Translations under genes and position numbers: made by a program
Notes under the pieces: generated by a model
Databases searched by the model: none
Told to the model about the DNA's origin: nothing
What the model saw: only the letters and a program-made list of their open reading frames with translations
Shown: positions 1 through 28,436 of the stretch, in pieces
Numbering within the stretch: position 1 is the stretch's first letter
How the letters are laid out: every line of letters starts with the position of its first letter
From: Pseudomonadota bacterium
Lineage (GTDB): Bacteria; Pseudomonadota; Gammaproteobacteria; Acidiferrobacterales; Acidiferrobacteraceae
DNA length: 64,000 nucleotides
Assembly (NCBI GenBank): GCA_021816625.1
Contig: JAKAXM010000012.1
Coordinates: 1-64,000, forward strand
Direction: 5' to 3'

Positions 1-292
1 GGAAGCGGCACAGCCGGTCCAGATGTACGGCCTCCGCGTCGCCGCGCGCGGCCTGGAAGGCATCGAGCGGTGATACGGGCGCCCCCGTGCGGCGTGAGAC
101 ACGCAGCAAGGCCTCGTAGGCCACGGGACGTTGATGCGCGATGCTAAGTATGGGCTGAAAAACCGTGCGCAGGAGCAGCCCCTCGTGGTAGGCGACAAAG
201 GCCGATCCCTCATAGCTGAGCTGGGCTTCCATCGCGGCGAGATCTTGTGGCCACCCCAAACCGGTAACGCTTTTAAGCTCCGGTCGATTCAT
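1..292 (-). CDS. EAL-domain protein, 5' part only (cut by window edge)
   Basis: Reading the minus strand from an ATG at 292 gives 97 residues open to the window edge. The start of an EAL (cyclic-di-GMP phosphodiesterase-type) domain is visible: FQPI at residues 45-48, YEALLR at 59-64 with the signature EAL intact, and LDRLCR at 91-96. About 44 residues precede the domain and contain no predicted membrane segment, so the protein is probably cytoplasmic. Whether the remaining catalytic residues are present, and whether other domains follow, lies outside the window. It is the first of three cyclic-di-GMP related genes in the first 28 kb. The 190 bases between this start and the next gene (293-482) hold nothing I can name, apart from the presumed promoter. 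Confidence 0.8.
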   Translation of the reverse strand, partial: MNRPELKSVTGLGWPQDLAAMEAQLSYEGSAFVAYHEGLLLRTVFQPILSIAHQRPVAYEALLRVSRRTGAPVSPLDAFQAARGDAEAVHLDRLCRF

Positions 293-3729: not shown

Positions 3730-4497
3730 TTAGATCAAATATTTGATGCCGACGGCCGTCAAGAGGGCGAGTGTCGCACGCAGGAAGGTGCGCTGATTGA
3801 TGCGCATGTGTAAGTGGTTGCCAAGATAGAGGCCAAAGGCCGCGGCTGGCGCCATGAGCAGAAACACGAGACCCAAGACCTCGGTGAGCAGTCCCAAGCC
3901 TACATAAAGCCCCGCGCGCGCCACATTGTCCGCCAGTGCAATGGCCTGGAAGGTTGCGCGGAAGGCGCGTTTGTCCAAGTGGCGCATCTGCAGATAGGCC
4001 ACGAGCGGCGGCCCGCCACCCCCATACAGGCTCCCGATGATACCCCCAAAGACCCCGAGCGGCAGGGCCCAGGGACGGCCAATTTGGGGCATGCGTTCGG
4101 GTTTGGCTGCCACCGCATAGATGACGTAGGCCAGAATAAAGACGCCCAGAAAGAGGGTCAGACTCTGGGCTCGGGTGTGGGCCAGGACCACGGCCCCCAC
4201 GGCCAAGCCGACGAGCGAGCCCGGTATGAGCCAGGAGAGTTCGCGCCATTGCATTTCCCGCAGGTCGTAGGCGCCGAGCAAGACTGAACCGAGGAGGTCG
4301 AGCAGCAAGACCACGGGTACGACCTGCTTTACGGGAAAGCTGAGCGACAAGAGGGCGACGGAGATGAGCCCCGAGCCGAAACCTATGGTGGCGCGCACAT
4401 AGAAGGCGGCGAAGACCACGGCCTCGAGAAAGACGAGCAGGGCCGGCTTCTGGATGAGGTGGGCAACGGTCAGGTGATCCATCGGGTAGGCCGCCAT
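3730..4497 (-). CDS. TauE/SafE (TSUP) family permease
   Basis: An integral membrane protein of the sulfite exporter TauE/SafE family, about 255 residues. About eight hydrophobic segments are visible, including LLVFLEAVVFAAFYVRA, VVPVVLLLDLLGSVL, LVGLAVGAVVLAH and a glycine-rich SLYGGGGPPLVAYL loop that matches the repeated GxGG signature of the family. The family moves sulfite, sulfoacetate or other small organic anions, and the substrate here is unknown. The open frame continues upstream to 4620, but those 41 residues are charged and proline-rich and unlike the family start, so the ATG at 4497 (or 4482) is preferred. It is convergent with the outer-membrane protein gene. Confidence 0.85.
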   Translation of the reverse strand: MAAYPMDHLTVAHLIQKPALLVFLEAVVFAAFYVRATIGFGSGLISVALLSLSFPVKQVVPVVLLLDLLGSVLLGAYDLREMQWRELSWLIPGSLVGLAVGAVVLAHTRAQSLTLFLGVFILAYVIYAVAAKPERMPQIGRPWALPLGVFGGIIGSLYGGGGPPLVAYLQMRHLDKRAFRATFQAIALADNVARAGLYVGLGLLTEVLGLVFLLMAPAAAFGLYLGNHLHMRINQRTFLRATLALLTAVGIKYLI

Positions 4498-4875
4498 GAG
4501 CGGTCCGGGCCGGCTCGACGCAGGCACTAGTCTCTCCAGGGATTTTAAGGGAAAAGTATGATCGGGGGGTCCGCGGGCCCGGCGACTCCGAGCCGCCTTG
4601 CCGACGGGCCGCTGCCACATCGCCCGGCATCTTAGTGGACCCGGCGGGTGGAGCGCAACCGTCTCGTCGGGCCGGCCCGCGTATCTGGAGATCGCCGCGT
4701 CCGCTATACTTCACAGGACGTCTCCGAAGACAGGCGGTGGCATGGGGGGGTGGCGCCTTACGGGTTCCCAGCGCGGCGCGGCAAGTCGGCGCGCGGCGCG
4801 GTTGTGGGCGCCGTTTGCGATATGCCCAAGGCCCGTCTTACGGGCGCCCGATGGGGCGCCCGGGAGGCGTGAGCG
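4498..4875. other. Intergenic region, 378 bases, divergent promoters
   Basis: This lies between the divergent permease and PAS-GGDEF-EAL genes. No gene of its own was found; the open frames here look like GC-driven shadows. A TATACT hexamer at 4705-4710 is a possible -10 element for the downstream gene, but it lacks a recognisable -35 at 16-18 bases, so it is only a weak candidate. Confidence 0.35.
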
Positions 4876-7536
4876 GTGACCATGGATACTGAGCCAGGAT
4901 CCGGCGTCTGGCTGCGCCGGGCGCGGCCAGGCCCGGTGTTTGCGGCGGTCGCGGCCGTGGTCGTGATCACGATGGCGGGACTTACCGTGCTGATCCGCCG
5001 CGCCGAGCGCCAGGATGCGTGGCGGACGCTGGATAGCACGGTGCGCTTCGTCGCCGCCACGGCCCGCTTTGGCCTCGGGGATGAACGGGCGCAATGTGTG
5101 GTGCTGGCGCATGAGATCGCCGCTATACCGGGTCTGGCGAGCGGCCAGGCGGCGGCCGCCGCCCATGCGCTTTTGGTCGACTTTCGCGGGCGCCACCCGA
5201 CCGTAACGGGAGTGGCCCTCCTGGGCCCCCATGGCTCGCTATGGGCGCAGGCCGGCCACGCGCCGGGGCGGGCCGACCGCGCGCCCGCACGGGTCGGGCC
5301 CGCCGCGCTCGCGAACGGGCCGGTCTTCGCAGTCGGTCTCCCCCGCATGGCGGCAGGCGCGGAGAGGGCGCCGGTTTGGTATGTGTCACGGGTCGCAGGT
5401 CATGTCCGGTTCGTACTCTGGGTGCAGCTGCGTCTAGCCCGGCCGCGTCCGTCGTGGGCGATGTGGCCGTCGCTTCCCGGCACCACGACCGCGCTTTTAC
5501 GGGCCGATGGGCGCGTGGAGGCCTTGTGGCCCTGGTCGCCTGCGGGCATGCCCATGGTCAGGCAGGCGCTGCGCGCGGTCCCGGCCGCCCGCCGTAGCGG
5601 ACGCTTTGTCACGAACCGGGGTCACCAGCCCCCTTGTCGGGTCGTATTTCGGCGCGTCGCCGGCTACCCTTTGACCGCGCTCGTGTTACAAACCATGCGA
5701 GGCCCCGTAGGGGCCTGGGCCCGCGCGGCGCGGCTGCCGGCGTTTCTGGCGCTGCTTTTGCTGGGCGCCCTTGGTGCCCTGTACCGGTGGACGCAGGAAC
5801 GTCTGGCGCCGGTCCTGGCGGTTCCGCCAGTCCCTGGCGCCCGGGAAGGGCCGTTGGCGGGGGGGCCGGCCGCGGGGGTCATCCACTCTTTGGCCGACGC
5901 CGTTATCGTGACCGACCGCCAGGGACGCGTCGATTATCTGAACCCGGCCGCAGAGCGGCTCACAGGCTGGCCGGAGGGGGCGATACGGGGCGCCCGCCTC
6001 GCAGACGTGCTCCCCTGTTTGGACGAATACGACGGCACCGTGCGTGACGGGCTTGACGTCTGCCTCAAAGGGGATGCGCTGGGGCCCGAGGAGGTCTTGC
6101 TCTTTACGCGTAAGGGCCGGGTCATCTTGGTTGAGCGCAGCGCGGTGCCGCGGCGCGAGACGCAGGGCGTGACGGGCGTCGTGCTTACGTTTCGGGATGC
6201 CAGCGCCAAGCGCACGGTCGCGGAGCGGCTTGCCCATCAAGCGCGCCATGACCCCCTGACGGGGCTGCCCAACCGCATCTTATACGGCGAGCGGCTCGCC
6301 CAGGCCATTGCCGAGGCGCACGAGGTAAATGTCGCCATCGCCTTGATTTTTCTTGACGTCGACGGCTTCAAGGCCGTGAACGACTCGTTTGGACACAGTG
6401 CCGGCGATCAGGTGCTCGTGCTCATCGGCGAGCGGTTGCGGCGCGTCATGCGGGCGGCCGACACCGTCGCACGGCTCGGCGGGGATGAGTTTGCCGTCGT
6501 ATTGCCGGGCCTGAGCGGACCCCATGACGCCTTGCCGGTGGTCCAAAAGATCATGGCCATATTCGCAGCGCCCCTTACGGTGGCGCTCGGCGCCGTGCGC
6601 GTGGGCGTGAGTATCGGGATCGCCATCTATCCGCGCGACGGCCAGGATGCCCGTACCCTCGCTGAGGCGGCGGACGCGGCGATGTACGAGGCCAAGGCGG
6701 CGGGCAAGACCACATACCGCTTCTTCGACCAGGGTGCTGCACCCGGCCGGGTGAGCCGCGCCGCCGCGCTCCATGAACGTCTGCGGCAGGCCCTGGCACA
6801 CGACGAGTTCTGTCTCTTTTATCAACCGCAACTGCGTGTCGCCGACCACCAGCTCGTCGCTGTCGAGGCCTTGCTGCGCTGGATGGACCCAACCGAGGGC
6901 GTGAAGTATCCCTCAGAATTCCTGTTGGGGCTCGAGGAAGCAGGTCTCATGCCGGCGCTGGGTCTGTGGGTGCTTTCGGCGGCCTGCACGCAAAGCCGGC
7001 GCTGGCGGGACCTCGGTATCGCGCCCTTGCCGATCGCCGTCAATCTGTCGGTTCGAGAATGTTGCGAGGCGGGCCTCGCGACACTGCTGGCGCAGACCCT
7101 GCAAACCCACGGCCTTGGGGAGGGGGATCTCGTGGTCGAGTTCGCCGAGCACGTGCTCGGGGCGGAGGCGGCCGGCGGTTTGGCGGAGTTGCGGCTGATC
7201 GCCGACCGGGGGATCCGTCTCGTGGTGCAGAACTTCGGGGGCAGCGCGTCGAGCCTCGGTTATTTGCGGGACTTGCGCGTGGAGGCCTTGAAGATCGAGC
7301 CGGAATTCATCGCCGGGCTTGGCGATCACCACAAGGAGGCGGTCGTGCTCGCTATTATCGCCCTAGGCCATGCCCTCAAGTTGCGGGTCGTGGCAAGCGG
7401 GGTCGAGACCGTGGCCCAGTACCGGTTCCTTAAGGAGGCCGGGTGCGACGCCATTCAGGGGAATTTCATCGCGCCGCCGCTGAACGCCGAGGCGGCGACC
7501 GCCTACATGCGCGCAGCGCTCATCAGGGATGGTTGA
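4876..7536 (+). CDS. Membrane PAS-GGDEF-EAL protein, EAL domain degenerate
   Basis: An 886-residue cyclic-di-GMP signalling protein. A membrane segment at about residues 20-40, a periplasmic sensor region to about 280 and a second membrane segment near 290-310 precede a cytoplasmic PAS domain (about 335-445), a GGDEF domain and an EAL domain. GGDEF is intact at 535-539, with an inhibitory-site RAAD at 526-529, so diguanylate cyclase activity with product inhibition is expected. The EAL triplet is kept (664-666), as are the NLS asparagine and the LKI lysine. However, the metal-binding Asp-Asp of the usual DDFG motif is Gln-Asn (785-786), and the first Glu of EGVE is Ser (841), which should abolish phosphodiesterase activity. 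The EAL part may instead bind cyclic-di-GMP. The start is GTG at 4876; an in-frame ATG lies at 4882. Confidence 0.92.
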   Translation: MTMDTEPGSGVWLRRARPGPVFAAVAAVVVITMAGLTVLIRRAERQDAWRTLDSTVRFVAATARFGLGDERAQCVVLAHEIAAIPGLASGQAAAAAHALLVDFRGRHPTVTGVALLGPHGSLWAQAGHAPGRADRAPARVGPAALANGPVFAVGLPRMAAGAERAPVWYVSRVAGHVRFVLWVQLRLARPRPSWAMWPSLPGTTTALLRADGRVEALWPWSPAGMPMVRQALRAVPAARRSGRFVTNRGHQPPCRVVFRRVAGYPLTALVLQTMRGPVGAWARAARLPAFLALLLLGALGALYRWTQERLAPVLAVPPVPGAREGPLAGGPAAGVIHSLADAVIVTDRQGRVDYLNPAAERLTGWPEGAIRGARLADVLPCLDEYDGTVRDGLDVCLKGDALGPEEVLLFTRKGRVILVERSAVPRRETQGVTGVVLTFRDASAKRTVAERLAHQARHDPLTGLPNRILYGERLAQAIAEAHEVNVAIALIFLDVDGFKAVNDSFGHSAGDQVLVLIGERLRRVMRAADTVARLGGDEFAVVLPGLSGPHDALPVVQKIMAIFAAPLTVALGAVRVGVSIGIAIYPRDGQDARTLAEAADAAMYEAKAAGKTTYRFFDQGAAPGRVSRAAALHERLRQALAHDEFCLFYQPQLRVADHQLVAVEALLRWMDPTEGVKYPSEFLLGLEEAGLMPALGLWVLSAACTQSRRWRDLGIAPLPIAVNLSVRECCEAGLATLLAQTLQTHGLGEGDLVVEFAEHVLGAEAAGGLAELRLIADRGIRLVVQNFGGSASSLGYLRDLRVEALKIEPEFIAGLGDHHKEAVVLAIIALGHALKLRVVASGVETVAQYRFLKEAGCDAIQGNFIAPPLNAEAATAYMRAALIRDG

Positions 7537-7612: not shown

Positions 7613-9484
<1,872 letters not shown>

Positions 9485-9550
9485 CCGGGTACGGGACGGC
9501 AAGCGGGGCGGTTCACGGCCGGTCGGGCGCGGGGATGCGCGGGGGTGGGC

Positions 9551-10432
9551 ATGACCGCGGCCTTGTATGAGACGCATCTGAGTCTGCCCCTTTTGCATCG
9601 CGGCAAGGTGCGCGATCTCTACGACGCCGGCCCTGATCATTTGCTGGTCGTGACGACCGACCGCTTATCGGCCTTCGACTGCGTGTTGCCGGACCCGATC
9701 CCGGGCAAGGGGCGCGTTTTGAACGCCATGTCGCGCTTTTGGTTCGCGCAAACCGCAGACATCGTCGCCAATCATGTCTCCGAGCGGCCGCTCGCATCCG
9801 TCCTTGCCGATCCCGCCGAGCGCGCCCTTGTGGCGGAGCGGGCCATGGTTGTGCGCCGTCTGCGGCCGGTGCCGATCGAGGCCATCGTACGCGGCTATCT
9901 GGCGGGATCGGCCTGGAAGGACTATCAGCGCACGGGTAGGGTGGCTGGCGCGCCGGTGCCGGCCGGATTGAGCGAGGCGGCGGTCCTGCCGGAGCCGATT
10001 TTCACGCCTTCGACCAAGGCGGCGGTGGGGGCCCACGACGAAAACATCTCTTTTGCGCAGGCCGAGGCCTTGCTTGGGCCCGCGCTGGCGGCGGCCGTAC
10101 GGGACATTAGCCTGCGGATCTATAAGCGCGCCGCCGCGCTTGCCCAACGCCATGGCGTGATCATTGCCGATACCAAGTTCGAGTTCGGCACGGACGCCGA
10201 GGGTAGGCTCGTCCTGATCGACGAGGTGCTTACCCCCGATTCATCCCGATTCTGGCCAGAGGCCTCGTACCGTATCGGCATGAGCCCGCCAAGCTATGAC
10301 AAACAGTATGTGCGGGACTATCTCGAGACCTTGGGTTGGGATAAGCGGCCGCCGGCGCCGCCCTTGCCGTCCGAGGTCCTGGCCCAGACCGCCGCCCGCT
10401 ACGAAGAGGCCCTGCGCGTTCTTACCGCCTAA
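9551..10432 (+). CDS. purC: Phosphoribosylaminoimidazole-succinocarboxamide synthase
   Basis: SAICAR synthetase of purine biosynthesis, which joins aspartate to CAIR using ATP. The N-terminal [10 protein letters not shown] (about residues 17-26) and [12 protein letters not shown] (about 36-47), the central [17 protein letters not shown] and the C-terminal [14 protein letters not shown] are the diagnostic stretches. At 293 residues it is the longer form found in many proteobacteria and in the yeast enzyme domain. A GTG lies 6 bases upstream at 9545; the ATG at 9551 agrees better with the family start. Confidence 0.96.
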
Positions 10433-10477
10433 GCCCCCCGGACGGGGGGCGCGAGGCTAGCCGCCCCGGGGGCGGCT
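10433..10477 (+). terminator. Two consecutive GC-rich hairpins after purC
   Basis: GCCCCCCG-GA-CGGGGGGC (10433-10450) begins immediately after the purC stop. It is followed by a second perfect inverted repeat, AGCCGCCCC-G-GGGGCGGCT (10459-10477). Neither has a T-run, so they may stop transcription inefficiently or protect the 3' end. Confidence 0.5.
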
Positions 10478-10501
10478 GTGCTACCGTGCCGGCAACGGCT
10501 C

Positions 10502-10586
<85 letters not shown>

Positions 10587-10618
10587 GGACGCCTGCCGGA
10601 GCCGGATCGTGGCCCATC

Positions 10619-10647
10619 TTGGCCGTTACCAAGCGAATCGGTATGAT
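10619..10647 (+). promoter_or_regulatory. Sigma-70-type promoter of tig (tig-clpP-clpX)
   Basis: TTGGCC (10619-10624), a 17-base spacer and TATGAT (10642-10647) lie 51 bases upstream of the trigger factor start. The -10 matches 5 of 6 and the -35 matches 4 of 6 consensus bases. Confidence 0.55.
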
Positions 10648-10697
10648 CGGCATAGGGTCGCACCTCCCCCAATCCCAATCTTTCGTGAGAAGGCAGC

Positions 10698-11990
10698 ATG
10701 CAAGTATCCATTGAAGCAACCGGCGGGCTTGGCCGACGGATGACGGTCGCGGTACCGGCCGAGCAGCTCGAGCGTGAGTTCACGGAACGGCTAAAGCGGC
10801 TGTCCCGCACCGCGCGGCTGGCGGGTTTTCGGCCCGGACGGGCCCCGCTGCGTATCGTCGAGGCCCAGTATGGGGGTAAGCTCCTAGACGAGGTGGCCCA
10901 GGATCTCATGCGCGACAGCTTCTACGATGCCCTGAACCGGGAGGGTCTGAAGGCGGCGGGTGGCCCGATCATCGAACCCAAGACCTTGGCCCGCGGCCAG
11001 GACATGCAGTATGTCGCAGTCTTCGAGGTCTACCCTGAAGTGAAGCGGGTGGATTTGAAGGATGTGGAGATAGAGCGGCCCACCTGCACGATCACCGACG
11101 ACGATGTCGAGCGCACGATAGAGGTCATGCGCCAGCAGCGCCGGACCTTTGCCGTCGTGGACCGGGCGGCCGCCGATGGCGATCAGCTCACGATCGATTT
11201 CGCGGGGACGCTCAATGGCGAGGCCTTCGCGGGCGGTAGCGCCGAGGGACACACGGTTATCGTGGGCGCGGGCACCTTGCTTCCCGATTTCGAAGCGGCC
11301 CTAAAAGGGGCGCGTCCTCAGGCCACGATCGATGTGCCGGTCAGCTTTCCGGCGGAATATGGGGTGGCGACACTCGCCGGCAAGACCGCCCAATTCCATA
11401 TCACGGTCCGGGCGGTAGCCGAGCCCGTGTTGCCGGCCGTGGATGAGGCCTTCGCGGCCGCGCTCGGGGTAACGGAGGGCGGTGTCGAGGCCCTGCGCTC
11501 TGAGGTACGCCGCAATCTCGAACGCGAGGCCGGGCGGCGGATTCGCGAACGCTTGAAAGCTGCGATATTCCAGAAACTGCGCGACGTTAACGCGCTTGAG
11601 GCACCCCAGGGCTTGGTGGAAAGCGAGGCCGCGCGCTTGCGTGAGACAACTCGCGCACAGCTTGCGAGCCAAGGCATGAGGACCGAAGGCCTGCCGGCCG
11701 ACAACGCCCCGTTTCGCGAACGGGCGGCCGAGCGCGTAACGCTTGGCATCATTCTTTCCGAGCTCGTCCGTAAACGCGATCTCAAGGCCGATGCCGCGCG
11801 CGTGCGCGCGCGCGTCGAGGAAATGGCGCAAGATTATGATGACCCGGCGCAGTTCGTGGCTTGGTATTACAGCAAGCCCGAACGTGTGGCCGAGGCTGAG
11901 TCGCTGGTCCTCGAGGATCAGACGGTAGACTTGTTAGTGGCGGAGGCGCGGGTTACCGATAAGGCCCTGCCCTTTACGGAGTTGACCTGA
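10698..11990 (+). CDS. tig: Trigger factor (ribosome-associated chaperone)
   Basis: A ribosome-bound chaperone and peptidyl-prolyl isomerase that meets nascent chains at the tunnel exit; 430 residues, the usual length. The N-terminal ribosome-binding domain contains the signature GFRPGRAPLRIVEAQYG (about residues 39-55). A central FKBP-type domain spans about 150-240 (QLTIDFAGTLNGEAFAGGSAE). The helical C-terminal domain is complete. It is the first gene of the tig-clpP-clpX order conserved in proteobacteria, and clpP follows 19 bases later. Confidence 0.97.
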   Translation: MQVSIEATGGLGRRMTVAVPAEQLEREFTERLKRLSRTARLAGFRPGRAPLRIVEAQYGGKLLDEVAQDLMRDSFYDALNREGLKAAGGPIIEPKTLARGQDMQYVAVFEVYPEVKRVDLKDVEIERPTCTITDDDVERTIEVMRQQRRTFAVVDRAAADGDQLTIDFAGTLNGEAFAGGSAEGHTVIVGAGTLLPDFEAALKGARPQATIDVPVSFPAEYGVATLAGKTAQFHITVRAVAEPVLPAVDEAFAAALGVTEGGVEALRSEVRRNLEREAGRRIRERLKAAIFQKLRDVNALEAPQGLVESEAARLRETTRAQLASQGMRTEGLPADNAPFRERAAERVTLGIILSELVRKRDLKADAARVRARVEEMAQDYDDPAQFVAWYYSKPERVAEAESLVLEDQTVDLLVAEARVTDKALPFTELT

Positions 11991-12009
11991 AAAATAAGCG
12001 GAATGATTC

Positions 12010-12633
12010 ATGACAAAGACGGAATTCGCTAACGACTTTTCGCCCATGGCCCAGCTCGTACCGATGGTGATCGAGACTACGGGCCGTGGCGAGCGCGCCT
12101 ACGACATTTATTCGCGGATGTTGAAGGAGCGCCTGATCTTCCTCGTGGGGCCGGTCGAGGACCACATGGCGAATCTGGTCGTGGCGCAGCTTTTGTTTCT
12201 CGAATCCGAGAACCCGGACAAGGATATCCATATCTATATCAATTCCCCCGGCGGTGCGGTCACGGCCGGCCTTGCCATCTACGATACCATGCAGTTCATA
12301 AAGCCGGACGTGAGCACGGTTTGCATCGGTCAGGCGGCCAGCATGGGAGCTCTGTTACTGGCGGGCGGGGCCGCGGGCAAGCGCTACGCCTTGCCGCATG
12401 CGCGGATGATGGTTCACCAGCCCTCGGGCGGTTTTCAGGGGCAGGCGACGGATATCGATATCCATGCGCGCGAGATCCTACGGGTGCGTGAACGTCTGAA
12501 TAACATCTTAGTCAAACATACAGGTCAGGACGTCAAGCGGATCGAGCAAGATACGGAGCGCGACAACTTCATGGACGGTCACGAGGCCGTCGCGTACGGT
12601 CTGATTGACTCGGTGATCGACAAGCGTAAATAG
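12010..12633 (+). CDS. clpP: ATP-dependent Clp protease proteolytic subunit
   Basis: A serine peptidase that forms the tetradecameric barrel of the ClpXP protease; 207 residues. The catalytic serine lies in [14 protein letters not shown] (about residues 107-120), the histidine in [12 protein letters not shown] (about 131-142), and the aspartate follows near 180. The start ATG at 12010 is preceded by AAGCGGAA. It is co-directional with tig, and clpX follows after 93 bases. Confidence 0.98.
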
Positions 12634-12726
12634 GGGGATATGCTAGACTGGTAGGAAAGAACGCGCGGGTCATGAGAAGGGGCTTTAGGTGGCTGGCCCG
12701 GCGAGTCCTTTGAGCGAGGTTCAGCA

Positions 12727-14019
12727 ATGGCAGATGACAAGCATGATGGCAAGGGCGAGAAGCTCCTTTACTGCTCTTTTTGCGGCAAAAGTCAGCACGA
12801 GGTCCGCAAGCTAATCGCGGGGCCGTCTGTATTCGTGTGCGACGAGTGCGTCGAGTTGTGCAATGACATCATCCGTGAGGAAGTGCAGGAGGAGACCGAA
12901 ATCGGGCTTGCCCGCAACAAATTCCCGAAGCCGCGCGAGATCAAGCAGATCCTCGACGAGTACGTGATCGGCCAGTCCACCGCGAAGAAGGTGTTGGCGG
13001 TCGCCGTCTACAATCATTACAAGCGCATCGAACACCAGGAAAAGATAGGCGACGTCGAACTATCGAAGAGCAATATCCTACTCATAGGGCCCACCGGCTC
13101 GGGGAAGACCTTGCTCGCCGAAACCCTGGCGCGGCTTCTGAATGTCCCGTTTACGATAGCCGATGCCACGACTTTGACCGAGGCGGGTTATGTCGGTGAA
13201 GACGTGGAGAACATCATTCAGAAGTTGCTTCAGAAGTGCGACTATGATGTCGAAAAGGCGCAGACGGGCATCGTCTACATCGACGAGATCGATAAGATCT
13301 CGCGCAAATCCGACAATCCCTCCATCACGCGCGATGTCTCCGGGGAGGGCGTGCAGCAGGCGCTCCTCAAGCTCATAGAGGGCACGGTAGCTTCTGTGCC
13401 GCCCCAGGGTGGCCGCAAGCATCCGCAACAGGAATTTCTGCAGGTCGACACGCGCAATATCCTGTTTATCTGCGGCGGCGCTTTCTCGGGTCTCGAGAAG
13501 ATCATTCAGGATCGTTCGGAGAAGAGCGGCATAGGCTTCAATGCGGAAATCAAGAGCCGTGTTATCAGCAAGCGCGCGAGCGACGTGTTCCGGGGGGTGG
13601 AGCCGGAAGACCTGATCAAGTTCGGTCTTATACCGGAATTCGTCGGCCGTTTGCCCGTGATCGCCGTGCTCGATGAGCTCGATGAGGCGGCCTTGATCCA
13701 AATCCTTACGGAACCGAAGAACGCGCTCATCAAGCAATATCAAAAACTCCTCAAGTTCGAAGGGGTCGATCTCGAGGTCCGTGATGAGGCCTTGGTCAAG
13801 GTGGCGCACCGGGCCATGGAACGCAAGACAGGCGCGCGGGGGTTACGGTCCATTTTGGAACATGTGCTGCTTGAGATCATGTTCGATCTGCCGTCACTTG
13901 AGAATGTGAAGAAGGTGGTGATCGATGAAGGCGTGATAGGGGATACGAGCAAGCCGTTGCTCATCTACGCCGATCACGAGGAGCAGGGTAGCCCGAAGCG
14001 GGCATCGACCCGGCCTTAA
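12727..14019 (+). CDS. clpX: ClpX ATPase, specificity subunit of ClpXP
   Basis: An AAA+ unfoldase that feeds substrates into ClpP; 430 residues. The N-terminal zinc-binding domain shows CSFC and CDECVELC (about residues 16-43), Walker A is [15 protein letters not shown] (about 122-136) and Walker B is [10 protein letters not shown] (about 183-192). The RKHPQQEF pore-loop region and sensor segments are present. It forms a unit with clpP. The 93-base gap before it contains no convincing independent promoter. Confidence 0.98.
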
Positions 14020-14069
14020 AGCCCTCTCCGACACCGCCACCTCCGGGCACTCGCCCCGTGTCCAGTGGC

Positions 14070-14099
14070 CTTGATTTTACGGGGCCGCGGGCCCATCTA
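14070..14099 (+). promoter_or_regulatory. Sigma-32-type heat-shock promoter of lon
   Basis: CTTGATT (14070-14076), a 14-base spacer and GCCCATCTA (14091-14099) resemble the heat-shock consensus. The element lies about 70 bases before the lon ATG at 14170. This also argues that the open frame upstream of 14170 is not translated. Confidence 0.6.
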
Positions 14100-14169
14100 C
14101 AGCCTGAAACGGCCGGCCGCGGATGGGTCCGGTCTCATGCTTCGGCGCCATGCGTCACGAGGGGTATCC

Positions 14170-16587
14170 ATGACTGAAGAATCCGATTTGTCGCCAGCGC
14201 CAGAACAGACCGCAGTCCCCGTGCTTCCGTTGCGGGACGTGGTCGTTTTCCCCCATATGGTGATCCCGCTGTTCGTCGGCCGTAAAAAGTCGATCAAGGC
14301 GCTAGAACGGGCCATGGAGGGGGGCAAGCAGATCATGCTGGTGGCCCAGAAGAGTGCCTCCGACGACGATCCGAGTCCGGCTGGCATCCATGTCATCGGC
14401 ACGGTCGCCAACATTCTCCAGCTCCTTAAGCTCCCCGACGGGACCGTGAAGGTCTTGGTTGAAGGCGAGCAACGGGCCGAGGTCGTGCGTTTCATCGAGA
14501 CAGGCGAGGCGTTCTCAGCACAGATCAAGAGGCTCGAGAGCGAAGCCCTAAACGACAAAGAGGGCGAGGCTCTCATGCGCTCGGTACTGAGCGAGTTTGA
14601 CCAGTACGTCAAACTGAACATGAAGATCCCGCCTGAGATCCTGACTTCGCTTGCGGGCATAGACGATGCGGGTCGGCTTGCCGATACGGTGACCGCGCAC
14701 CTTAGTCTTAAGATCGAGGAAAAGCAGCAGATACTGCAGATGCTGAACGTCCGTGATCGCCTCGAACACATTTTGGGCGTCATGGAATCGGAGATCGATC
14801 TTTTGCAGGTCGAAAAGCGCATCCGTGGCCGCGTGAAGCGCCAGATGGAGAAGAGTCAGCGCGAGTATTACCTAAACGAGCAGATGAAGGCGATCCAGAA
14901 GGAGCTTGGGGATCTCGAGGACAACCCGAGCGAGGCTGAGGATTTGGCCCTTAAGATCAAGAAGGCCGGCATGCCCAAAGAGGCACGCGAGAAGGCCCTG
15001 TCCGAGCTCAATAAGCTCAAGATGATGTCGCCCATGGCCGCCGAGGCCACAGTGGTGCGCAACTACATAGACTGGTTGCTTGCTGTGCCGTGGAAGAAAC
15101 ACAGCAAGATCCAGAAGGATCTGGCGGAGGCCGAACGGATCCTGGAGGCCGATCACTACGGGCTTGAGAAGGTCAAGGAACGGATCATCGAGTACCTTGC
15201 CGTTCAACAACGTGTCAATAAATTGAAGGGCCCGATTCTGTGTCTCGTGGGTCCGCCCGGGGTCGGCAAGACATCGCTTGGTCAATCGATTGCGCGAGCC
15301 ACGAACCGCAAATTCATCCGCATGTCGCTTGGCGGCGTGCGCGACGAGGCGGAGATTCGCGGTCATCGCCGGACCTATATCGGATCCTTGCCGGGCAAGA
15401 TCATCCAGAACATGGCCAAAGCGAAGACCCGCAATCCCCTGTTCATGTTGGATGAGGTCGACAAGATGGCCATGGACTTTCGGGGTGATCCGTCGTCGGC
15501 CCTACTCGAGGTCCTCGATCCGGAACAGAATCACGCGTTCAGCGACCATTATCTCGAAGTGGACTACGACTTGTCCGACGTGATGTTCGTTGCGACATCA
15601 AACAGCTTGAACATCCCGGGGCCCTTGCTCGATCGTATGGAGGTCATTCGGCTGTCTGGCTACACCGAAGACGAGAAGATCAATATCGCCATGCGCTACC
15701 TTGTCGACAAGCAAAAGCAGAATAACGGCCTGCGGGCCGATGAGCTGCAGTTGTCGGAGTCGGCGATTCGGGACATCGTCCGGTACTACACGCGCGAGGC
15801 GGGCGTTCGTAACCTGGAGCGCGAGATCGCAAAGATCTCCCGCAAGGTTGCGCGGGAGTTGTTGCTGGACAAGAAGCGTGACCACCTGACGGTGAATGCG
15901 AAGAACCTGGATAAGTATCTTGGTGTGCGCCATTTCCGTTACGGAATGGCCGAACAGACGAACCAGATAGGTCAGGTCACGGGGCTTGCGTGGACCGAGG
16001 TCGGGGGCGAGTTGCTCACCATTGAGGCGGCGTTGCTGCCCGGCAAGGGTAAGCTTACGATCACGGGCAAGTTGGGGGATGTCATGCAGGAATCGATCCA
16101 GGCAGCGATGAGCGTCGTGCGTTCGCGCGCAGCCTCGCTTGGCATCGCCGAGGACTTCTACCAAAAGCACGATTTCCATCTCCATGTCCCCGAGGGTGCG
16201 ACACCTAAGGACGGCCCTAGCGCCGGTATCGGTATGTGTACGGCCATGGTTTCGGTATTGACGGGTATTCCCGTGCGCGCGGACGTTGCCATGACCGGCG
16301 AGATTACCTTGCGGGGCGAGGTGTTGCCGATCGGTGGTCTGAAAGAGAAGTTGTTGGCGGCGCACCGCGGGGGGATCAAGACCGTGATCATACCGGAAGA
16401 GAACCAGAAGGATCTGGTGGAGCTGCCGAAAAACATCCAGGAATCGCTTGAGATTAAGCCCTTACGCTGGATCGATCAGGTCCTGGAGGTCGCCTTGGAG
16501 CGACGCCCCAAGCCGCTTGCCGAGGCCCCCGAGGGCGGCAAGCCGTTGGAAGCCGAGGCGCCGAATAAGGCGATTCGTACCCACTGA
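14170..16587 (+). CDS. lon: ATP-dependent protease Lon
   Basis: A hexameric AAA+ serine protease that degrades misfolded and regulatory proteins; 805 residues from this start. The N-terminal substrate domain begins at [20 protein letters not shown], Walker A is [15 protein letters not shown] (about residues 357-371), and the Ser-Lys catalytic dyad lies in DGPSAGIGM (about 680-688) with the lysine in the [10 protein letters not shown] segment. An open frame extends to 14065, but the ATG at 14170 has a GAGGGG ribosome-binding site, matches the family start and lies downstream of the heat-shock promoter. The last 30 residues are a charged, alanine/proline-rich tail. Confidence 0.97.
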
Positions 16588-26674: not shown

Positions 26675-28436
26675 GCCAGTGGCGGGCCGCCCGCGCCGGC
26701 AGTTCCGGGGCCACCAGCAGACCCTGGGCGTAGCGGCAGCCCAGGCCTTCGGCGATCTCACGCTGGGCCGTGCTGTCCACGCCGCCTGCATAGAGTTGCA
26801 GGCCCAAGGCACCGGCGCCGGCGCTTAAGGCCTGCAAGAGCCGCAGTTCGGCGGCATCGCCCGAGAGCGCGCATTTGACTGCATAGAAGGCCTGGTCGGC
26901 CACGTAGGCAAAGCCGGCGCGTTTGTGGCCGTGGAAGTGATCGAGTAGGACACGGAAGCCACGTTCCTTGAGATGGGCCGCAAACTGCGTCCCAGCCGCG
27001 GCGTTTGCGAGCATGGCGTCTTCGGCAATCTCGATCACCATGATGCCATGGACGCCCAAAACCTCATCTCGCCATTGCCGCAGGCGCTCCGGTAGCTGCA
27101 CGTCATGGAGATCGGGGCTATGGAGATTGATGTGCAAAGGGACGCCGCTTTCCCGGAAGATGTCTCCGTCGGCTTCGATGAGGTTTAGGAGGCGCTCGAG
27201 CAGGCGCGTACGTAACAGGCCCTCGGTGAGGTCGGCGATGTCCTCTTCCCGGACTACGGACCCGTAGGCCTTGGGCCAACGCAGGCAGGCCTCGAGACCT
27301 ACGGTAACGCCTTCGCAATCGACTATCGGCTGGAAGCTTGCCTGCCACCGCTCCTCCAAGACCGCGACCTCGACGTCGCGGCGCAATTGGCTGCGCAACG
27401 CAAGCCGCGCCGTGTTGGTGCGTTCGAAGCAGCGGTACTGGTTGCCGCCGTTGCGCTTGGCCTCGTACATCGCTTGGTCTGCGTGTTGCAAGAGAATCTC
27501 GGCGGAATGGTCGTCGAAGGGGTATATGGTGATACCGGCACTGAGCGTCACGGCCATGCTATGACCGTCGATGACGAGAGGCTCGCGGCCTTTGAGCAGG
27601 ATCCGATCGAGTACGCCCTCGATCTGCTCGAGGTGTGCGACGTCTTCCATGAGGATGACGAATTCATCGCCCCCATAGCGGCTCACGGTATCGGTAGTCC
27701 GCAGCGTTTCCCCGAGCCGGTCGGCAATGGTGGCAAGCAGGCGATCACCGGCCTCATGCCCGAAGGCATCATTGATCTGTTTGAAGCCGTCGATGTCGAT
27801 CAGCGCCACCACGAGCAGGCGATCCCCGCGCAGTGCCCGGCGGCGCGCATGCGCGAGACGATCCATGAGAACCCCGCGGTTGGGTAGGCCGGTTAGGGCG
27901 TCGTGATGCGCGTCACGCGCGAGCGCGGCCTCGAGTGCCGAGCGGTAACAGGCATTGCCCATGAAGGCGGCAATGGCCTCGATGAGCAGGAGCGTGCGCC
28001 GCCCTGGCGGTCGCCGCGGCCGCGTTCGCCAGGCCACTACCAGCGCGCCTTCGAGGCGGCCGGCCACGGGTATCGGTACGGCGAGGCTCGACCGGACCCC
28101 AAGTTCAATGAATTCCGGGATGGCCGCGGGATGACGGCGGTAGTCGGCGGTGTAGACCGGCGCCCCGCAAGCCAGCATCTCTCCGACGATCCCGCGGTCG
28201 CAAGGGAAGCGGAACTGCCCCAGGCGCACAGCCTCCGCCGCGCTCAGCCCAAAGAAAAACTGGTAACGCAGCTGTTCGCCATGACGCAAGACGAGTCCCG
28301 CGCAATCGGCGCCCCCAGCCAAGGCTGCGGCCTGCGCCGCCTTCAGAAAAAGGCGATCGAACTCAAGGGTAGTCGCAAGCTCCCGAAACAGCTGTTCGGG
28401 TTGGGATCGCAGGGTCGCGTTTTTGCGTGCCGGCAT
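26649..28436 (-). CDS. GAF-GGDEF-EAL protein with degenerate EAL domain
   Basis: A soluble cyclic-di-GMP signalling protein, 595 residues from this start (an in-frame ATG lies at 28484). A GAF sensor covers about residues 20-170, the GGDEF domain about 180-345 and an EAL-like domain about 365-590. YGGDEF at 254-259 is intact, and the inhibitory RTTD lies 5 residues before it, so diguanylate cyclase activity is expected. The EAL signature reads EAC (382-384), the usual DDFG reads DHFH (499-502), and the EGVE motif reads GGVD (551-554), while the NL asparagine, the IEIAE glutamate and a lysine are kept. Phosphodiesterase activity is therefore unlikely, and the domain may bind cyclic-di-GMP or partners. 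It is transcribed in the same direction as the upstream nir-siroheme operon but separated from it by about 140 bases. Confidence 0.9.
   Translation of the reverse strand: MPARKNATLRSQPEQLFRELATTLEFDRLFLKAAQAAALAGGADCAGLVLRHGEQLRYQFFFGLSAAEAVRLGQFRFPCDRGIVGEMLACGAPVYTADYRRHPAAIPEFIELGVRSSLAVPIPVAGRLEGALVVAWRTRPRRPPGRRTLLLIEAIAAFMGNACYRSALEAALARDAHHDALTGLPNRGVLMDRLAHARRRALRGDRLLVVALIDIDGFKQINDAFGHEAGDRLLATIADRLGETLRTTDTVSRYGGDEFVILMEDVAHLEQIEGVLDRILLKGREPLVIDGHSMAVTLSAGITIYPFDDHSAEILLQHADQAMYEAKRNGGNQYRCFERTNTARLALRSQLRRDVEVAVLEERWQASFQPIVDCEGVTVGLEACLRWPKAYGSVVREEDIADLTEGLLRTRLLERLLNLIEADGDIFRESGVPLHINLHSPDLHDVQLPERLRQWRDEVLGVHGIMVIEIAEDAMLANAAAGTQFAAHLKERGFRVLLDHFHGHKRAGFAYVADQAFYAVKCALSGDAAELRLLQALSAGAGALGLQLYAGGVDSTAQREIAEGLGCRYAQGLLVAPELPARAARHWLKTALHQS

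Follow-up and report, generated by a model that had tools for sequence, protein, structure and literature searches.

The gene at 4876-7536 of the window, by which we mean the whole stretch of 64,000 nucleotides analysed here, encodes a GGDEF-EAL protein with an altered EAL active site, and the question is what such a domain does behind an intact GGDEF domain. The initial annotation had predicted a cyclase whose EAL domain only binds ligand or partners. Our own answer is that the product is probably a membrane diguanylate cyclase, with an EAL domain that would be non-hydrolytic and kept as a regulator of the cyclase. Cyclase activity, the absence of hydrolysis, the regulatory role and ligand binding are what we infer from the sequences; a cyclase with an inactive regulatory EAL domain is a pattern already known in other bacteria.

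The frame contains no stop codon, and the PAS, GGDEF and EAL domains all score above the Pfam cut-offs in a Pfam scan (Table 1). The GGDEF assignment is given by PF00990 (157.4 bits against a cut-off of 23.8) and TIGR00254 (146.4 against 37.4), the EAL assignment by PF00563 (189.9 against 31.3) together with the predicted TIM-barrel fold, which superposes on 4rni_A (TMt 0.93, 1.8 A) and 2r6o_A (TMt 0.93, 1.5 A). No NCBIfam equivalog reached its cut-off among the 25 best of 30. The promoter/terminator scan found no promoter-like site, and three terminator-like sites with 2.0 expected.

Table 1. Features of the sensor-PAS-GGDEF-EAL gene and its immediate neighbours.
Feature	Position	Strand	Basis or remark
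Whole gene, sensor-PAS-GGDEF-EAL	4876..7536	+	886 aa, GTG start, open frame
Hydrophobic segment 1, residues 22-40, likely membrane helix	4939..4995	+	Kyte-Doolittle peak 2.61
Likely extracytoplasmic dCache-like sensor, residues 41-283	4996..5724	+	ortholog profile vs 3lif_A
Hydrophobic segment 2, residues 284-302	5725..5781	+	Kyte-Doolittle peak 1.95
PAS domain, residues 335-441	5878..6198	+	PF00989, 55.1 bits
GGDEF domain, residues 456-611, catalytic residues intact	6241..6708	+	PF00990, 157.4 bits
RxxD inhibitory-site motif, R526-D529	6451..6462	+	codon reading, orthologs
EAL domain, residues 634-868	6775..7479	+	PF00563, 189.9 bits; predicted fold
EALLR, residues 664-668, ExLxR kept	6865..6879	+	codon reading, orthologs
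Q785-N786 replacing DDFG aspartates	7228..7233	+	codons, PDB-chain alignments, orthologs
K806-I807-E808, KIE replacing KID, Lys kept	7291..7299	+	codons, orthologs
S841 replacing first Glu of EGVE	7396..7398	+	codons, PDB-chain alignments, orthologs
htpG, neighbour in 15/15 orthologous loci	7613..9484	+	context, outside proposed mechanism
TauE/SafE-family permease, divergent neighbour in 13/15 orthologous loci	3730..4620	-	gene context

The two hydrophobic peaks in the N-terminal part are consistent with two membrane helices, which we regard as likely. A further Kyte-Doolittle peak of 2.0 lies at residues 822-840 inside the EAL domain, so that the scan is not specific by itself. A profile of the N-terminal region, built from 10 of the 16 orthologous proteins described below, matches PDB entry 3lif_A (E 3.4e-8); the Pfam family dCache_1_like was hit in two of these ten rows (best E 0.0014) and is absent from the row of the protein itself. 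The AlphaFold2 model was made from three sequences and has a mean pLDDT of 55.8, with 440 residues below 50. Use was made of its GGDEF-EAL portion alone, where ten-residue blocks mostly reach pLDDT 64-92, the sensor lying below 50 and being unusable. Its best fold match in Foldseek is PA0575 (5m3c, E 1.1e-43).

The active site itself could be read from the codons. CAG (7228-7230) encodes Q785, AAC (7231-7233) N786 and AGC (7396-7398) S841. In phmmer alignments with the structurally solved EAL domains of 5m3c and 4rnh both motifs are free of gaps, a single one-residue gap lying between them, and Gln785-Asn786 falls on the two aspartates of DDFG and Ser841 on the first glutamate of EGVE. The protein thus lacks the DDFG aspartates and the EGVE glutamate by which a catalytic EAL phosphodiesterase is recognized. 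The same substitutions had been proposed in the initial annotation, along with retention of EAL, the asparagine (Asn723) and the lysine (Lys806) and an intact GGDEF domain with its inhibitory site, and all of this is borne out: E664 of EAL, N723, E755, E758, K806, E844 and Q861 are kept, and GGDEF (535-539) and RxxD (526-529) are whole in the codons and in all 16 orthologs. Two changes come in addition, namely Glu808 at the aspartate position of KID and an altered loop after DDFG (GGSASSL vs GTGYSSL).

What these losses would mean for the metal sites can be judged from PA3825, where the ligands described are a Glu, an Asn, an Asp and the first DDFG Asp for the M1 metal, and the second DDFG Asp together with Asp183 for the M2 magnesium (PMC5301497). 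The corresponding ligands we infer by motif, taking Asp183 as the aspartate of KID. On that mapping three of the four M1 ligands would be kept (Glu664, Asn723, Glu755), and neither aspartate of M2, with Asn786 and Glu808 standing in their places. The catalytic base is given as the first Glu of EGVE, and its absence is scored as an inactive EAL domain (PMC12900916).

Orthologs were sought in 60 related genomes. Among the matches listed, near-full-length close matches occur in 12 of 13 further genomes from the same genus and in three of four further genomes of the family, all three belonging to a second genus (g2), and the count of 16 is made up of 13 proteins from the genus and three from g2. 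The thirteenth of these genus genomes, G006, counts neither for nor against, its best match being partial and distant and its contig ending inside htpG. The 16 proteins form a single clade (support 100/98), and in all 15 orthologous loci the gene adjoins htpG, with purC, tig, clpP and clpX next in line. The TauE-like permease gene is found in 13 of them, the contigs of the other two stopping before its position. In the window these downstream genes, with lon, occupy 7613-16584 (+) and are protein-quality genes; lon is present in 13 of the 15 loci, that is wherever the examined stretch extends that far. The open-access literature searched held nothing on an arrangement linking htpG with such a cyclase.

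The glutamate of EGVE is gone in 16 of 16 orthologs (Ser in eight, Ala in five, Gly in three), and 15 listed cyclase and RxxD positions are identical in all of them, a combination that agrees with the predicted cyclase with a non-hydrolytic EAL domain. QNFG is found in 13 of 13 genus proteins, while the three g2 orthologs retain DDFG and show AGVD for EGVE. Since Q and N are invariant in all 13, Q785-N786 is neither chance nor a reading error, and on the sequences at hand the change is old and fixed in the genus. The simplest order of loss would be the base first and the aspartates later, on the branch to the present genus. The nearest outgroup (98/94) is L039 from genome G015, contig C10, which has DDFG and EGVE intact; it was rejected as an ortholog, the neighbouring genes being different. 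L039 is in the opposite state, with SENKF in place of GGDEF, no RxxD, and whole EAL motifs.

We propose that the dCache-like extracytoplasmic sensor and the cytoplasmic PAS domain would control the pairing of GGDEF domains, and that the paired domains would synthesize c-di-GMP, with the RxxD site providing feedback. The EAL domain would fold but be without c-di-GMP hydrolysis, one complete metal site being unable to form and the catalytic base gone. Its role would instead be regulatory: it would influence how the cyclase domains pair, probably as a brake of the kind reported for E. coli DgcE, and in the present species it may additionally bind c-di-GMP via ExLxR.

DgcE appears to be the closest described protein; it was compared by its description and by the NCBIfam diguanylate cyclase model PRK09776, which we take to represent DgcE and against which the protein scores 278.5 bits (cut-off 1135). 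DgcE is described as a MASE1-PAS3-GGDEF-EALdeg membrane cyclase in which the EAL domain has an inhibitory effect and works against oligomers (PMC6510439). Both proteins are membrane-anchored and carry PAS and a degenerate EAL domain, and the GGDEF domain is working in DgcE and intact here. DgcE has MASE1 and three PAS domains, whereas the present protein has a putative dCache-like sensor and one PAS domain; a Pfam scan detected no MASE1 in it, and two hydrophobic segments near the N-terminus are found instead. According to the same description the EAL domain of DgcE is without all key binding residues, whereas ExLxR, Asn and Lys are kept here, and with ligand-binding residues missing only from the DgcE domain the two proteins may not work alike. 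PAS-GGDEF-EAL cyclases with an inactive EAL domain are also described from Komagataeibacter xylinus; in those proteins the motifs are conserved and a degenerate loop 6 is given as the cause of the inactivity (PMC10333796), while here metal and base residues themselves are lost. PA0575 (5m3c) is the top match both in sequence (E 2.4e-96) and in fold, but it keeps DDFG and EGVE in the phmmer alignment. In the open-access literature searched we found no paper on a Q-N signature (QNFG) of an EAL family, and none on an inactive or binding EAL domain with altered DDFG.

A different function for the EAL domain is possible but unlikely, namely that of a FimX/LapD-type receptor that senses c-di-GMP and signals to a partner or across the membrane, with control of the cyclase secondary. 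FimX and LapD likewise have a non-catalytic EAL domain with ExLxR as binding motif (PMC3527489, PMC3032553, PMC5301497, PMC10333796), and FimX, which is without DDFGTG, is reported to bind c-di-GMP still (PMC5301497, PMC3527489). The protein at 4876-7536 retains ExLxR, reported as the c-di-GMP-binding motif of inactive EAL domains (PMC10333796), and the NCBIfam LapD model covers its GGDEF-EAL part; the score is, however, 137.8 bits against a cut-off of 1020, and the GGDEF domain is intact here but degenerate in LapD and FimX (PMC3527489, PMC3032553, PMC5301497). The protein is thus no LapD by that model, nor did the Pfam scan find a HAMP domain. Among the orthologs ExLxR is present in ten of 16, that is in 10 of 13 from the genus, the EALLR of the present protein included, and in none of the three from g2. 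The other genus proteins have EVFLR, EVFLR and EALLC, and those of g2 EVLVQ, EVLLQ and EVLVQ. Binding of c-di-GMP by the EAL domain is therefore plausible in the present species, but with the motif missing in 6 of 16 orthologs it would not be a role shared by the whole family.

It is distinctly unlikely, in our view, that the Q-N pair is a fixed redesign, in which a one-metal or metal-free pocket would let c-di-GMP gate the cyclase and so provide a second product feedback besides RxxD. Such a redesign would have come about in steps: the base would have gone ahead of the divergence of the two genera, and the aspartates would have given way in the present genus only, with the sister protein L039 taking the opposite course (GGDEF broken, EAL intact).

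Whether the EAL domain is maintained at all can be judged from its conservation. The mean pairwise identity among the 13 genus proteins is 38.7% for residues 41-280, 61.9% for PAS, 75.8% for GGDEF and 62.9% for EAL, and in 78 of 78 pairs the GGDEF domain is more similar than the EAL domain, on average by 12.9 points. This, and motif states that vary by lineage (EVF, EALLC, EVLVQ), would be expected of a decaying relic that is tolerated since the protein functions as a cyclase alone. We consider such a relic quite improbable, given that frame and fold are maintained across two genera and that 60 of the 235 EAL columns do not vary within the genus, namely Q785, N786 and 58 others, E664, E755, K806 and Q861 among them. 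Moreover, intact proteins too show EAL identity below that of GGDEF. For a paralog whose GGDEF and EAL domains are both intact the values are 79.2 for GGDEF vs 74.5 for EAL (GGDEF higher in five of six pairs), where the orthologs of the present protein from the same four genomes give 81.1 vs 68.9 (six of six). In a set of 13 intact proteins drawn from elsewhere in the order, outside this family, the figures are 61.2 vs 56.4 (65 of 78). A paralog with an active EAL domain (11 proteins, 10 genomes) shows the reverse, 75.3% vs 84.2% with GGDEF higher in 0 of 55 pairs; beside it the contrast looked large, but the GGDEF domain of that paralog is without RxxD. The gap of 12-13 points here thus compares with about 5 in proteins with both domains intact. 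A clear decay of the EAL domain was rejected, as the intact controls deviate in the same direction (5/6, 65/78) and the excess is modest; the domain is modestly relaxed in the present genus rather than given up. For g2 (three orthologs, 79.9 for GGDEF vs 80.3 for EAL) there is no relaxation at all, despite the lost base.

That the domain still hydrolyses c-di-GMP through an unusual site is very improbable: E664, N723, E755, K806, E844 and Q861 are retained, and residual activity is reported as possible in degenerate EAL proteins, with PigX as the example (PMC10333796), but both DDFG aspartates, the KID aspartate and the EGVE glutamate are all replaced.

Other altered EAL domains were observed as well. 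The window contains a second GGDEF-EAL gene at 26706-27911 (-), with GGDEF and RxxD intact and a degenerate EAL domain (DHFG, no KID, AGGVD), and at 38-172 (-), the very start of the contig, an EAL-family fragment of 24.4 bits (cut-off 31.3). In genome G000 (L001-L021) the DDFG pair is altered in 6 of 21 distinct EAL domains and the EGVE glutamate absent in 4 of 21; L001 and L006 share one pair of domains, which enters the count a single time, L022 is a fragment below the family cut-off, and L012, L014 and L019, which fell under the BLAST cut and are absent from the paralog motif rows, are included among the 21. In five of the six altered cases the preceding GGDEF domain is intact and has RxxD; L015, the sixth, has GAGEF. 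L097 (G010), L098 (G001) and L020 (G000, contig C4) form a paralogous trio (100/100) with degenerate EAL motifs; their tree neighbours L093-L096 and L099 retain DDFG and EGVE, which points to a parallel loss in that family.

It is common for a working cyclase to be followed by a degenerate EAL domain. To our knowledge, one can seldom see in which order such domains lose their residues. In the present case a single syntenic family would show the loss of the base first and of the metal ligands second over two genera, and it includes a subclade that keeps ExLxR and a sister protein, L039, with the opposite loss. With this stepwise order, subclade and sister protein, the family would offer a usable natural series for the effect of a dead EAL domain on a live cyclase.
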